This document shows, one piece after another, positions 27,945-32,291 of a stretch of 32,291 bases of DNA. Source of the DNA: Bacteroidales bacterium (GTDB taxonomy: Bacteria > Bacteroidota > Bacteroidia > Bacteroidales > B18-G4); contig JAUWGC010000007.1 of NCBI GenBank assembly GCA_030606625.1, positions 1 through 32,291 of the forward strand, in the 5' to 3' direction. The notes beneath the pieces were generated by a model. It worked only from the letters and a program-made list of their open reading frames with translations. It was not told where the DNA came from and did not search any database. A program made the translations under genes and the position numbers. Numbering within the stretch: position 1 is the stretch's first letter; each line of letters begins with the position of its first letter.

Positions 27945-27977
27945 CACTTAGCATTTCACTTTTCACTTTTCACTATT
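27945..27977 (-). repeat. Heptamer array, AGTGAAA family, at the radical SAM stop
   Basis: Units CACTTAG, a 5-bp partial, CACTTTT twice, CACTATT. It is inverted relative to 27684-27718. The last unit overlaps the stop codon of the radical SAM gene (27976-27978). The 226 bp between the two arrays (27719-27944) hold no gene that I can support, only a short GGCAAGC direct repeat near 27830-27850. Confidence 0.75.
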
Positions 27978-29145
27978 ATTCCCATACGCCCGGTATACGT
28001 TCATTGCAAAATCTGCATTTCCCGTCCTTTATGTTGTTTTCGATGATTTTATATCCTCTGCGTTCAATCAGTGTTTTTTTGCATGAAGGACAATAAGTAT
28101 TTTCTGCATTAATACCGGGAACGTTTCCGATATAAACGAACTTCATCCCTTCCTGTAATGCGATTTCTCTGGCTTTTTCGAGTGTAGCGGTGGGGGTGGG
28201 GGGTAATTTTGTTAATTTATATTGAGGATGAAAACGGCTGAAATGCAGGGGGCAGTCATCCAGATCATTATTGTAAAGCCAGTTACACATTTTTCTGATC
28301 ATGTTGAAATCATCTGTCCAGCTTGGCACTATCAGATTTGTGATCTCCAGCCAAACGCCTTCTTCTTTCAATATCTTTAATGTATTAAGAACAGGATCCA
28401 ATGTACCGGCATTTAACATCTCATAGATGTCATTGCTGAAACTTTTCAGGTCAATATTTGCTGCATCCAGAACCTGGCAGATTTCTCTCAGAGGTTGCTC
28501 ATTAATATAACCGGCGGAAATAAATATGTTTTTTATTCCCTTCTGCCTGGCAATTTTGGATGTTTCATAAGTATATTCATAAAAAGCGATTGGCTCTGAG
28601 TAGGTATATGCAATAGATTTACATCCATAATAAAGGCATTCTTTGATAACCTCAGCCGGCATCAGGTCATAATTTTTTGATTCCAGCGGACTTACCTGTG
28701 ATATAGTCCAGTTCTGGCAGTTAAGGCATACAAGGTTGCATCCGGCAGTAGCTATGGAAAAAGCCTTGGTGGTTGGGAGAAAATGATATAACGGCTTTTT
28801 TTCAATAGGGTCAACATGTACGGCGCAGGGGTTCCCATAGGCAATACTATAGAGTTTTCCTCCTTTATTTACCCTGGTTCTGCAATCACCTGTTTCATCT
28901 TCTTTAAGGTTACATGCATGGGGGCATAATTTACATTTGACACCTTTTGGGGTTGAAATATAGTGCCTTGCTTCAATGCTCCATTTCCACAGGTCATCAT
29001 TACCACTAAAAAATTTATTGCCGCTGATCTTTGACAACCCTTTGGCAATTGCACTTGTACCGTTGAGAGCCAAAGCCAGACCACATGTTCCGCATATGCT
29101 GTACTTGAGAAATGTTCTTTTATCTATCTTTTTTCCCTTAGCCAT
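27976..29145 (-). CDS. amrS: AmmeMemoRadiSam system radical SAM enzyme, with Tat-like leader
   Basis: A 389-residue radical SAM protein from ATG 29145. The frame extends to 29208, but a -7 box (29188-29195) lies inside that extension, so the shorter start is preferred. The N-terminus reads KKIDKRTFLKYSICG followed by a hydrophobic run, a twin-arginine-like signal with Lys-Arg. CKLCPHACNL and Cys88 form the Cys cluster typical of this subfamily; the Fe-S motif is Cys136, Cys140, Cys143 (CNLVCLNC). A C-terminal zinc ribbon (YCPSC, CRFCNERIPGVW) completes it. The substrate is unknown. A MEMO-like gene lies 2.3 kb away, which supports the system assignment. Confidence 0.88.
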   Translation of the reverse strand: MAKGKKIDKRTFLKYSICGTCGLALALNGTSAIAKGLSKISGNKFFSGNDDLWKWSIEARHYISTPKGVKCKLCPHACNLKEDETGDCRTRVNKGGKLYSIAYGNPCAVHVDPIEKKPLYHFLPTTKAFSIATAGCNLVCLNCQNWTISQVSPLESKNYDLMPAEVIKECLYYGCKSIAYTYSEPIAFYEYTYETSKIARQKGIKNIFISAGYINEQPLREICQVLDAANIDLKSFSNDIYEMLNAGTLDPVLNTLKILKEEGVWLEITNLIVPSWTDDFNMIRKMCNWLYNNDLDDCPLHFSRFHPQYKLTKLPPTPTATLEKAREIALQEGMKFVYIGNVPGINAENTYCPSCKKTLIERRGYKIIENNIKDGKCRFCNERIPGVWE

Positions 29146-29187
29146 GTTTGTTAGATTAATAAGATCCGAACTAATTAAGTTTGCATT

Positions 29188-29195
29188 CAAAACTA
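29188..29195 (-). promoter_or_regulatory. Candidate -7 box for the radical SAM gene
   Basis: The minus strand reads TAGTTTTG (TAnnTTTG), about 43 bp before the preferred ATG at 29145. It lies directly downstream (in transcription direction) of the heptamer arrays. No clear -33. Confidence 0.45.
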
Positions 29196-29211
29196 CCCCA
29201 CTCCCCACTTC

Positions 29212-29278
29212 TTACTCCTTACTCCTTACTCCTTACTTCTTACTTCCCCTGGTCACTGATCACTGGTCACTCGTCACT
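29212..29278 (-). repeat. Two adjacent heptamer arrays overlapping the end of the spermidine-synthase-like gene
   Basis: 29212-29246 is five units, TTACTCC three times then TTACTTC twice; 29251-29278 is four units, GGTCACT, GATCACT, GGTCACT, CGTCACT. The second array overlaps the last codons and stop (29260) of the membrane protein, so its terminal residues VTSDQ are array-encoded. It mirrors the array at 27684-27718. Confidence 0.85.
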
Positions 29279-31407
29279 GTTCCTGTTTTTATCAAAACGA
29301 TCAAACCCGCCAAAATATTTATTATTCCGATAAAAAAACATGTGTTGATAATACCTGTGAGCGGTATGAGGAAGATGGCTGCCGCAAGAGCACCAATGGC
29401 AGAGCCCAATAGATCAATGCTATATGTTGATGAGGCTATCCTTGCTACATTTTCTCTTTGAAGGATTGTTGCCTGGGCATACTGAAATCCGATCAAAATA
29501 CCGCATATTAAACTCAACAGGTTAAAAATGATATTGACCATGATCATCCATGTTGACAATCTTGACAGAGATATCATAAGTAAGGACAATATTATGGCGA
29601 ATAATCCTATGATGAATTGGAAAGTGTAATATTTTTTTATCCCGGGACTGATCAGCCTGGGAAAAACAAGGGACCCCAGTGCCAACCCTGCCATAAATAA
29701 TGTGATAATTATACCGATCATTTGATAAACATAACCATAAATAACCTGGAAACTAATCAAAAGGATGAACGTTACCGATGAGCCTGTGAAACCGCTTGCG
29801 AAAAGGCCGATATTTATAGCATTGGATTTTATGAAAACAAAAATCACAGGTATAAGGAGTAAAACCAGAAATAACCAGATGTTGATCTTGAAGTGGCTGA
29901 GCCAGTATAGTATCTGTTCATAATATGCCAGTGGCTTGAAGTCAGTGTTAAGCCTGGTGTCAGGATCAAGGGACTCCATGATCTTTCCAGCTCTTAACCG
30001 TGTTAATTCATCATCAAGATAGTATTCATTGACATAGATAGTATTTATTTTTTTTAAGATGATTTGTTCAACAATATTGTAAGTTATTTCTTCATCTGAA
30101 GCTATATAATAATCTTTTGTGCCGGGGATAATGATAACGTTATTGAAAACCTCTTTAAGGGTATTTAATAATACCGAATGGGTCATAATGGCTTCCTGAC
30201 TCATGTAATTTCCGGCTGAAGCCAGGTTTGTAGATAGTATACCACCGGGTTTAAGTACTTGCTTAACTTCTTTGAAAAATTCATAAGTATAAAACCTGTT
30301 GATTTGTGCTGTGGATGGATCCGGCAGGTCAATGATCACAATATCATAAGTATCATCCTGTTGTTTAACCAGTCTTCTCGGATCTTTCCCAATACTATTA
30401 ATGATTTTATCATCAAGTGCTGAAGTATATTCTTTCCCGAGGTCAAGAAGCCAGGGATTCATTTCAACATAATCAACCTGTTTTATGTTATATTTCAGGA
30501 TTTCCTTTGTTGTGCCTGATAAACCGCCGGAAATGAGCAAAACCTTTTCAGGCTTGGGATGTTGTACCATGGCATAATGAATGATTTCCTCATTATCTAA
30601 AGGCTGATAGGATGTGAAAAGAAGAGATCCGTTATCATAAAAGTTTTTCTGTCCGGCAATTTCAGTTATATCAATTTTACCATATGGCGTTTCTTCATAT
30701 AATATAATTTCCTGGTCAGGATATAACAGTTCCCTTGTCTTCTTATCAGGATCCAGTAAAAAAGCAGGTATAAGGAAAACGATTGCAAGGCAGATTGCCA
30801 GATATTTCAGCAATGGTTTCTTCATGGCTGAAGAAAGGATAAATGCCGATGACATATTGATCAGTAAAAGTAAAAAAAGTGATTGGAATGTTTTCAGGAA
30901 AAATACCAATAAGAAGTTGAAAATCAATCCCCCAATGATACTTCCAATTGCTTCCAGTCCATAAACCTTATTAATATTTTTTCTGCCTGTTATATTTGAA
31001 TATTCGATACTGAAAATTGTAAATAATGCACCGGAAACAAGGCAATAGGGTATGAGAAGCAACAAAATGATCAGCCATGTCTCTACCGGGCCGAACATCT
31101 TACCGGGGACAAATGCTATATTATGGAACAGATAAAAAGAAAATACGGTTACTACAGGAAGTATTGATATCACAATCTGGAATGCGTATATGAGTTTTAA
31201 CTTTTCTTTTATTTTTTTAACTGTCTTTCCAAGGAATGCTCCTGTTCCTGTCAGCAACATCCAGTTAGACAATAATATCCCCATAATCAATTCATTACCG
31301 TAAAACACGCTTAAAAACTCACGTAAAAGAATAATTTGCGTGGTGATAGCAGAAATACCCAGGATTATGACAGAATATTTTAAACCGCTTTCTATTTTAA
31401 TATTCAT
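29260..31407 (-). CDS. Polytopic membrane protein with central spermidine-synthase-like domain
   Basis: A 715-residue protein in three parts. Residues about 10-230 form seven transmembrane helices. Residues about 235-480 form a spermidine synthase/methyltransferase-like Rossmann domain: YDNGSLLFTSYQPLDNEEIIHY corresponds to the substrate loop, KVLLISGGLSG to the nucleotide loop, VDYVEMNPW supplies the ribose-binding acid, and IIDLPDPSTAQINRFYTYEFF matches the D-x-x-DP catalytic segment. Residues about 490-710 are again helical, resembling a transporter half. Membrane-fused aminopropyltransferase-like proteins of this type have unknown function. It is upstream of the radical SAM gene on the same strand and divergent from the MEMO-like gene, so a role in that system is possible. 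Confidence 0.78.
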   Translation of the reverse strand: MNIKIESGLKYSVIILGISAITTQIILLREFLSVFYGNELIMGILLSNWMLLTGTGAFLGKTVKKIKEKLKLIYAFQIVISILPVVTVFSFYLFHNIAFVPGKMFGPVETWLIILLLLIPYCLVSGALFTIFSIEYSNITGRKNINKVYGLEAIGSIIGGLIFNFLLVFFLKTFQSLFLLLLINMSSAFILSSAMKKPLLKYLAICLAIVFLIPAFLLDPDKKTRELLYPDQEIILYEETPYGKIDITEIAGQKNFYDNGSLLFTSYQPLDNEEIIHYAMVQHPKPEKVLLISGGLSGTTKEILKYNIKQVDYVEMNPWLLDLGKEYTSALDDKIINSIGKDPRRLVKQQDDTYDIVIIDLPDPSTAQINRFYTYEFFKEVKQVLKPGGILSTNLASAGNYMSQEAIMTHSVLLNTLKEVFNNVIIIPGTKDYYIASDEEITYNIVEQIILKKINTIYVNEYYLDDELTRLRAGKIMESLDPDTRLNTDFKPLAYYEQILYWLSHFKINIWLFLVLLLIPVIFVFIKSNAINIGLFASGFTGSSVTFILLISFQVIYGYVYQMIGIIITLFMAGLALGSLVFPRLISPGIKKYYTFQFIIGLFAIILSLLMISLSRLSTWMIMVNIIFNLLSLICGILIGFQYAQATILQRENVARIASSTYSIDLLGSAIGALAAAIFLIPLTGIINTCFFIGIINILAGLIVLIKTGTVTSDQ

Positions 31408-31411
31408 TTTG

Positions 31412-31419
31412 TATTTTTG
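31412..31419 (+). promoter_or_regulatory. Candidate -7 box for the MEMO-like gene
   Basis: TATTTTTG (TAnnTTTG), 38 bp before the ATG at 31458, within the 50-bp divergent spacer. The -33 element is not clear. Confidence 0.45.
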
Positions 31420-31457
31420 TTAAAGCAGAAAGTGTTAAACACGAAATTAATTAAATT

Positions 31458-32291
31458 ATGTTTAAAGCAAAATATATCATAATCATGGTTATAGGTATGT
31501 CGATTTTCACAAATGGGTGCCAATCCCAGGAAGAACAGGGTTCTGCCAAGCTTAAGAACAGGAAGCCTGCAGTTGCCGGCAGGTTCTATGAAGGAGATCC
31601 TGTAAAATTAAACGCTGATTTAGAAGCTCTTTTTTCCACTGCTGTACCCAAAAAGTATGACCATGTGATGGCAGTGATCTCGCCACATGCAGGATTTGTT
31701 TTCTCAGGTGGGGTTGCGGCCTCAAGTTTCAACCAGATTGAAACAAACAAGGATTATGACAATATCTTTATCCTTGCTTCAAGTCACCGGATTTCTTTTG
31801 ATGGGGCTTCTGTATACGATATTGGTAATTATGAAATGCCTTTGGGAACAGTCGAAGTTAATTTACCTTTAGCCAATGAACTGATCAAAAAAAATGAAGT
31901 TTTTACTTTCAGGCAGGATGCGCATCTTGATGAGCATAGTCTTGAAGTTCAACTGCCTTTTCTGCAGTATAAGTTAAAGGACAATTTCAGGATAATACCT
32001 ATTGTGATAGGGACACAAAATCCGTCAGCATGTAAAAAGATAGCTGCTGCATTAAAACCTTATTTTGGCGGAGACAACTTGTTTGTTATCAGCACTGATT
32101 TTTCACATTACCCGTCGTACGAAGATGCTCAAATGGTTGATCATCTTACGACAGAAGCCATTTTATCAAAAAATCCTGAAAAGCTATTAAAAACACTTAA
32201 AGACAATGATAAAAAGAATATTTATAACCTTGCAACGAGTCTTTGTGGCTGGACTTCTGTCTTAAGCTTACTTTATATCATTCAGGATAAT
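31458..32291 (+). CDS. amrB: AmmeMemoRadiSam system protein B (MEMO-like), lipoprotein-like leader; 3' end outside window
   Basis: The frame is open from ATG 31458 to the last base (278 codons, no stop). The first 21 residues form a short hydrophobic leader ending in IFTNGC, a relaxed lipobox with Cys21, followed by QSQEEQ. The MEMO domain starts at NRKPAVAGRFYEGDP. The putative metal-site and catalytic residues of the MEMO family are present: His77 in SPHAGF, His110 in SSHR, His160 in DEHSLEVQLPF, Asp214 and His217 in STDFSHY, and Cys263 in LCGWTS. MEMO proteins resemble metal-dependent dioxygenases; their bacterial role is unknown. An AMMECR1 domain may follow beyond the window, either fused or as the next gene. 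Confidence 0.88.
   Translation, partial: MFKAKYIIIMVIGMSIFTNGCQSQEEQGSAKLKNRKPAVAGRFYEGDPVKLNADLEALFSTAVPKKYDHVMAVISPHAGFVFSGGVAASSFNQIETNKDYDNIFILASSHRISFDGASVYDIGNYEMPLGTVEVNLPLANELIKKNEVFTFRQDAHLDEHSLEVQLPFLQYKLKDNFRIIPIVIGTQNPSACKKIAAALKPYFGGDNLFVISTDFSHYPSYEDAQMVDHLTTEAILSKNPEKLLKTLKDNDKKNIYNLATSLCGWTSVLSLLYIIQDN

Follow-up and report, generated by a model that had tools for sequence, protein, structure and literature searches.

A putative envelope-located AmmeMemoRadiSam system with a spermidine-synthase-like membrane partner in Bacteroidales

AmmeMemoRadiSam systems (TIGR04335, TIGR04336 and TIGR04337) combine MEMO and AMMECR1 domains with a radical SAM enzyme (rSAM). To our knowledge, what MEMO, AMMECR1 and their rSAM do has not been established in any organism; the human proteins MEMO1 and AMMECR1 are associated with disease. 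Radical SAM enzymes normally act in the cytoplasm. The DNA analysed here (the window, 32,291 nucleotides) is an entire contig (C169) of a 2.28-Mb Bacteroidales genome, which was distributed over 205 contigs and 84.8% complete. A first-pass annotation, made from the sequence alone, had proposed at its right end a MEMO-like lipoprotein, an rSAM with a Tat-like leader and a membrane protein with a spermidine-synthase-like domain, together forming a system directed outside the cytoplasm. Family matches to TIGR04336, TIGR04337 and PF01564 established that all three genes are present there (Table 1), though not in a single run, the MEMO gene being transcribed divergently from the other two. Short direct repeats (CTTACTC and GGTCACT) were observed in the interval between the rSAM and membrane genes (29209-29275).

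Table 1. Features of the three-gene locus at the right end of the window
Feature	Coordinates	Strand	Remarks
MEMO part of MEMO-AMMECR1 fusion lipoprotein	31458..32291	+	278 codons, open at contig end
Lipoprotein signal peptide, relaxed lipobox FTNG-C	31458..31520	+	Cys21 at 31518-31520
Divergent intergenic region between MEMO and membrane genes, 50 bp	31408..31457	.	Layout recurs in other loci
14-TM membrane protein, 715 aa (7 TM, spermidine-synthase-like domain, 7 TM)	29260..31407	-	PF01564, 75 bits
Spermidine-synthase-like domain, predicted extracytoplasmic	29893..30711	-	Residue, topology and Foldseek comparisons
Radical SAM enzyme AmmeMemoSam_rS, 389 aa from ATG at 29145	27976..29145	-	TIGR04337, 365.6 bits
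Tat-like rSAM leader, K9-R10-T-F-L-K14 then hydrophobic stretch ending SAIA	29044..29145	-	Sequence
CX3CX2C radical SAM cluster motif	28717..28740	-	C157, C161, C164 (ORF numbering)

The MEMO part encoded in the window scored 215 bits against TIGR04336 (cut-off 26), and the sole AMMECR1 gene found in this genome was located on another contig (C132), with its 5' end open. C132 starts with TCAGGATAAT, which is exactly the window's final 10 bases, and the reading frame runs on into AMMECR1. A convergent gene lies 3' of AMMECR1; its homologues belong to the PD-(D/E)XK nuclease superfamily and adjoin the MEMO-AMMECR1 gene in the same convergent orientation in 12 other loci. Overlap, frame and matching downstream synteny led us to join both contigs, an assignment that is well supported by the sequences, without any read spanning the junction. 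C132 thereby adds 230 codons to MEMO, giving a predicted MEMO-AMMECR1 protein of 508 aa with a complete match to TIGR04336 (245 bits, 1-270/270), 171 bits for TIGR04335 (cut-off 99) and 179 bits for its AMMECR1 domain (PF01871). The matter of whether AMMECR1 would be fused or adjacent past position 32291, raised by the first-pass annotation, is settled in favour of a fusion insofar as this join holds. Metal ligands H77, H110 and C263 were kept in homologues and correspond to H49, H81 and C244, the Fe/Cu ligands of human MEMO1 (PMC11081632). Likewise, the LRGCIG motif of AMMECR1 was kept. The modelled fusion displayed two well-folded domains of uncertain relative placement (pLDDT 95, pTM 0.68). 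The genome also encodes a second MEMO-domain lipoprotein (L002:1108-2220, minus strand, contig C176) of 370 aa with a FISSC lipobox and without AMMECR1; members of its family occurred near cassettes in L137, L150, L190, L199 and L200, and on their own in a further six genomes.

The MEMO leader (MFKAKYIIIMVIGMSIFTNGC, cleavage, then QSQEEQ) displayed the hydrophobic stretch and relaxed lipobox described beforehand, and such leaders recurred in homologues (see below). The acidic residues that follow it had been likened to the surface-export signals of Bacteroidota lipoproteins, an analogy that did not survive comparison: among 40 homologues with a lipobox, 18 had no acid at positions +2 to +6 after the Cys, 21 had one and a single protein had two. 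Since this stretch is not conserved, it lends no support to a surface-export signal, and a surface-exposed MEMO was dropped.

The rSAM exceeded the TIGR04337 cut-off of 220 bits and likely starts at the ATG at 29145, not at the GTG at 29208. Its leader reads MAKGKKIDKRTFLKYSICGTCGLALALNGTSAIA. The announced Tat-like leader is thus there, but as a KR variant without twin RR. This was also the prevailing form among cassette rSAMs with a motif (KR 63/80, RR 17/80) and the one encountered in most Bacteroidales. RR leaders were found outside this order, where that of L173 was over the NCBI Tat-signal cut-off and several others fell just under it. Some established Tat substrates, TtrB for instance, function with KR (PMC1182353). 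TatC is encoded in this genome (223.5 bits, G000:C84) and in 26/27 genomes with the membrane gene, but cassette-free genomes often have it as well. The prevalence of KR, a window leader that does not match the NCBI Tat-signal model and the RR leaders of this genome's two clear Tat substrates all weaken an envelope location.

The first two of these points would suit an explanation in which the leader merely anchors the rSAM, its catalytic domain remaining cytoplasmic with normal SAM and reductant and only MEMO-AMMECR1 being outside. This would also sidestep the problem of providing SAM and electrons beyond the membrane. We nevertheless hold it to be unlikely: a positive N-terminus ahead of a hydrophobic stretch predicts an N-in/C-out orientation, RR forms exist in several phyla, an independent lineage (L083/L086) replaces the Tat-like leader by a Sec-type N-in anchor, and the MEMO leader tracks the rSAM leader even without the membrane gene. 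Judged from these sequence features, export of the rSAM domain appears quite probable, its Tat route being inferred. In the separate Sec-anchor lineage (L083:3521-6924 and L086:7743-11099), the membrane protein was strongly diverged.

Homologues lacking the leaders would have refuted an extracytoplasmic system, yet the leaders were kept. Among the 86 rSAMs encoded no more than 6 kb from the membrane gene, 80 had a KR/RR Tat-like motif with a hydrophobic stretch behind it. The remaining six were two leaderless second tandem copies (L078 and L085), the Sec-type anchor of L086, a pair of genes that were truncated or cut, and a case in which the motif search had covered too short a range; L083 was tallied as KR though it carries a Sec-type anchor. 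rSAMs without the membrane gene nearby were leaderless in 32/40 cases. Five of the eight others had a membrane gene on another contig and three (L068, L104 and L091) came from genomes devoid of it, where the MEMO leader was still present. MEMO leaders were found in 78/79 proteins near the membrane gene versus 3/16 away from it, one of these three being an upstream-frame artefact.

When paired by locus or genome, both rSAM and MEMO carried leaders in 68 cases, neither did in 14, and seven showed an rSAM leader only, of which at least five revealed a MEMO leader on inspection (some pairs were assigned by hand, and these seven were read by eye as the automatic MEMO-leader call missed odd starts). 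On the tree, leader state changed independently only two to three times, so that this concordance, though strongly consistent, does not reflect a large number of independent changes. The same genomes, including the present one with its second copy, contain leaderless rSAM paralogues, and leaderless rSAM relatives accompany leaderless MEMO, which argues that the leaders are real. Wrong start codons or read-through as their source were ruled out, because those paralogues start directly at the domain and because conservation covers the leader and not the sequence preceding it. One locus (L036:8983-11413, genome G139) counts against an envelope location: its MEMO-AMMECR1 has a Sec-type leader and its shortened rSAM has no hydrophobic leader. 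It is possibly a decaying system. In L078 (321-2507) and L085 (7794-9974), the leaderless second rSAM directly follows the leadered one; a single operon may here provide both a cytoplasmic and an exported copy.

The rSAM family was recorded in 119/247 genomes of the order. Sampling relied on 67 fetched regions, which were compared with 80 named loci found independently via the membrane protein. The three genes stood together in 65 fetched loci, collinear in 31 and divergent, as in the window, in 27. These loci were mostly from Bacteroidales, with others in Ignavibacteriota, Planctomycetota, Verrucomicrobiota, Acidobacteriota and Lindowbacteria. Linkage of the membrane gene, the absence of which would have spoken against the first-pass annotation, proved conserved: where 5 kb of flank was available on both sides (n = 37), rSAM was found in 29 loci, the fusion in 29 and both in 26. 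Cassette rSAMs grouped in a single clade (SH-aLRT 98; 88 rows) that extends to Planctomycetota, Acidobacteriota and Verrucomicrobiota. Three genomes (G218, G320 and G378) lacked the membrane gene and retained both leaders, indicating that this gene is not strictly required. Neighbour clustering yielded only lineage-specific synteny and no fourth conserved cassette gene, such as one for an electron donor or SAM supply; an electron donor of this kind was therefore dropped. In six loci (L095, L076, L099, L123, L078 and L085), the membrane protein was about 800-850 aa long and carried ~130 aa of additional membrane sequence at its N-terminus. The membrane gene also occurred in archaeal MAG records (L131, L142, L145, L173, L186 and L207, three of them with the rSAM too) assigned to Woesearchaeota, Nanoarchaeota, Aenigmatarchaeota and Theionarchaea; binning error versus transfer remains unresolved.

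The AlphaFold model of the membrane protein placed the spermidine-synthase-like domain between two sets of seven helices (pLDDT 92.9, pTM 0.92), and Foldseek with this domain retrieved spermidine synthases, many structures giving a TM-score of about 0.7 by target length. Lys and Arg were enriched in loops on the N-terminal side in 101/101 homologues, from which, by the positive-inside rule, we infer that the domain faces outside. Its active site departs from that of true enzymes. The Asp of the GGGDG motif (position 296) is Ile, Leu or Val in 81% of the 101 homologues (Leu in the window) and is not even among their five commonest residues, while the catalytic Asp (position 360) is retained in 18%, the window's protein among them, and replaced by Asn in 62%. 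Adenosine-binding residues E315 and D342 are kept in the family. Thus, fold and adenosine-binding acids meet what is expected of a spermidine synthase, whereas the GGGDG Asp and the catalytic DxxD acids do not. In a plant spermidine synthase (SPDS), exchange D103I abolished SPDS activity and permitted SAM use (PMC3725402). By analogy, and given the acids lost and kept, the membrane protein is inferred to bind an adenosyl ligand without being an aminopropyltransferase.

The first-pass annotation had seen in it a possible aminopropyltransferase-like component: as a linked component it stands, as an aminopropyltransferase it is not supported. A true aminopropyltransferase was set aside given the loss of key acids across the family. 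For the broader proposal that the protein acts on polyamines, as an aminopropyltransferase or an exporter, and that the MEMO/rSAM link concerns envelope polyamines, the PF01564 domain and fold are the arguments; replacement of the first Asp in most homologues, the mostly Asn second site (Asp in the window) and the plant exchange at the analogous first site render it highly improbable. Shorter relatives of 500 aa, with seven TM helices and a spermidine-synthase-like domain, occur in the same genomes. They share the predicted topology, also without catalytic acids, and lack the rSAM/MEMO partnership, which counts against an envelope location.

On balance, we lean slightly towards an AmmeMemoRadiSam system relocated to the envelope, with a membrane partner that would handle an adenosyl ligand and perhaps supply SAM. 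The idea of a system directed outside the cytoplasm is thus supported by kept leaders, conserved linkage and the fused AMMECR1. The location is well supported as far as sequence evidence goes, whereas the chemistry is inferred. Sequence directly backs the fusion, leaders, linkage, conserved active sites and lost aminopropyltransferase residues; Tat export and outward topology are inferences. The MEMO-AMMECR1 fusion would sit outside the cytoplasm as a lipoprotein; the rSAM would probably be exported folded via the Tat pathway, with its Fe-S clusters inside, and may stay anchored; and the 14-TM inner-membrane protein would display its domain on the same outer face. This domain, probably no longer transferring aminopropyl groups and still binding an adenosyl ligand, might deliver or present SAM to the exported rSAM, or remove 5'-deoxyadenosine and methionine. 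rSAM and MEMO-AMMECR1, with its His/His/Cys metal site, would then act on a lipid, polymer or protein substrate of the envelope. Both SAM supply and substrate are conjecture. That the membrane partner handles SAM or its products is only a tentative suggestion, and the complete scheme, in which a Tat-exported rSAM is fed with SAM by the outer-face SAM-binding domain and works with MEMO-AMMECR1 on an envelope substrate, is more doubtful still. We know of no periplasmic SAM pool or source, nor of a periplasmic low-potential reductant, and with no conserved gene to supply them this weakens an envelope location.

An exported rSAM without SAM chemistry would avoid the first difficulty: its Fe-S clusters would pass electrons to MEMO-AMMECR1 and the membrane protein would be unrelated to SAM. 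In its favour, three lineages do without the membrane gene, and four N-terminal and four C-terminal Cys are kept, together with CX3CX2C, in 98-100% of exported rSAMs, as in leaderless ones. Yet each CX3CX2C cysteine is invariant in 83/83 exported and 30/30 leaderless homologues, many other core residues are kept as strictly as in cytoplasmic relatives, and the membrane partner retains its adenosine-binding residues, which makes such an electron relay improbable.

With all parts sent to the envelope, the substrate would be narrowed to something extracytoplasmic, and a third partner with a SAM fold is added to the system. If the rSAM works outside, it must find both SAM and low-potential electrons beyond the cytoplasm; no system shown to require this is known to us. 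The question is experimentally approachable, since a complete cassette is present in the cultured isolate Gaoshiqia sediminis A06 (L187).

In the literature searched, which did not cover Burroughs et al. 2019, the name AmmeMemoRadiSam appeared in five papers, a single time in each, and no publication on an exported form was found. The work by Burroughs et al. reportedly treats Memo-clade contexts, so the membrane gene or the leaders may have been mentioned before. With this reservation, family membership is that of the known AmmeMemoRadiSam, and the inferred location and the third gene, coding for the membrane protein, are new.

Among known proteins, human MEMO1 (PDB 7kq8) shares the MEMO fold and corresponding metal ligands, but has no signal peptide, AMMECR1 domain or rSAM partner. 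Glycyl-radical enzyme activases (PflA; PDB 3c8f) provide the closest solved structure to the rSAM by sequence (33 bits); unlike it, they have no leader and no MEMO/AMMECR1 partner and are known as cytoplasmic. Fused MFS/spermidine synthase proteins (NF037959) resemble the membrane protein, which is over their family cut-off, in having an N-terminal TM half followed by a spermidine-synthase-like domain; here, seven more TM helices follow the domain and the protein is a dedicated rSAM/MEMO partner. Finally, the present locus scores above the cut-offs for all three AmmeMemoRadiSam domains and preserves the residues of the metal site and of the cluster. It differs from the known system in that MEMO and AMMECR1 are fused and, as predicted, exported, that the rSAM carries a Tat-like leader and that a 14-TM spermidine-synthase-like partner is added, in contrast to leaderless AmmeMemoRadiSam members of the same order, which occur without the membrane gene.
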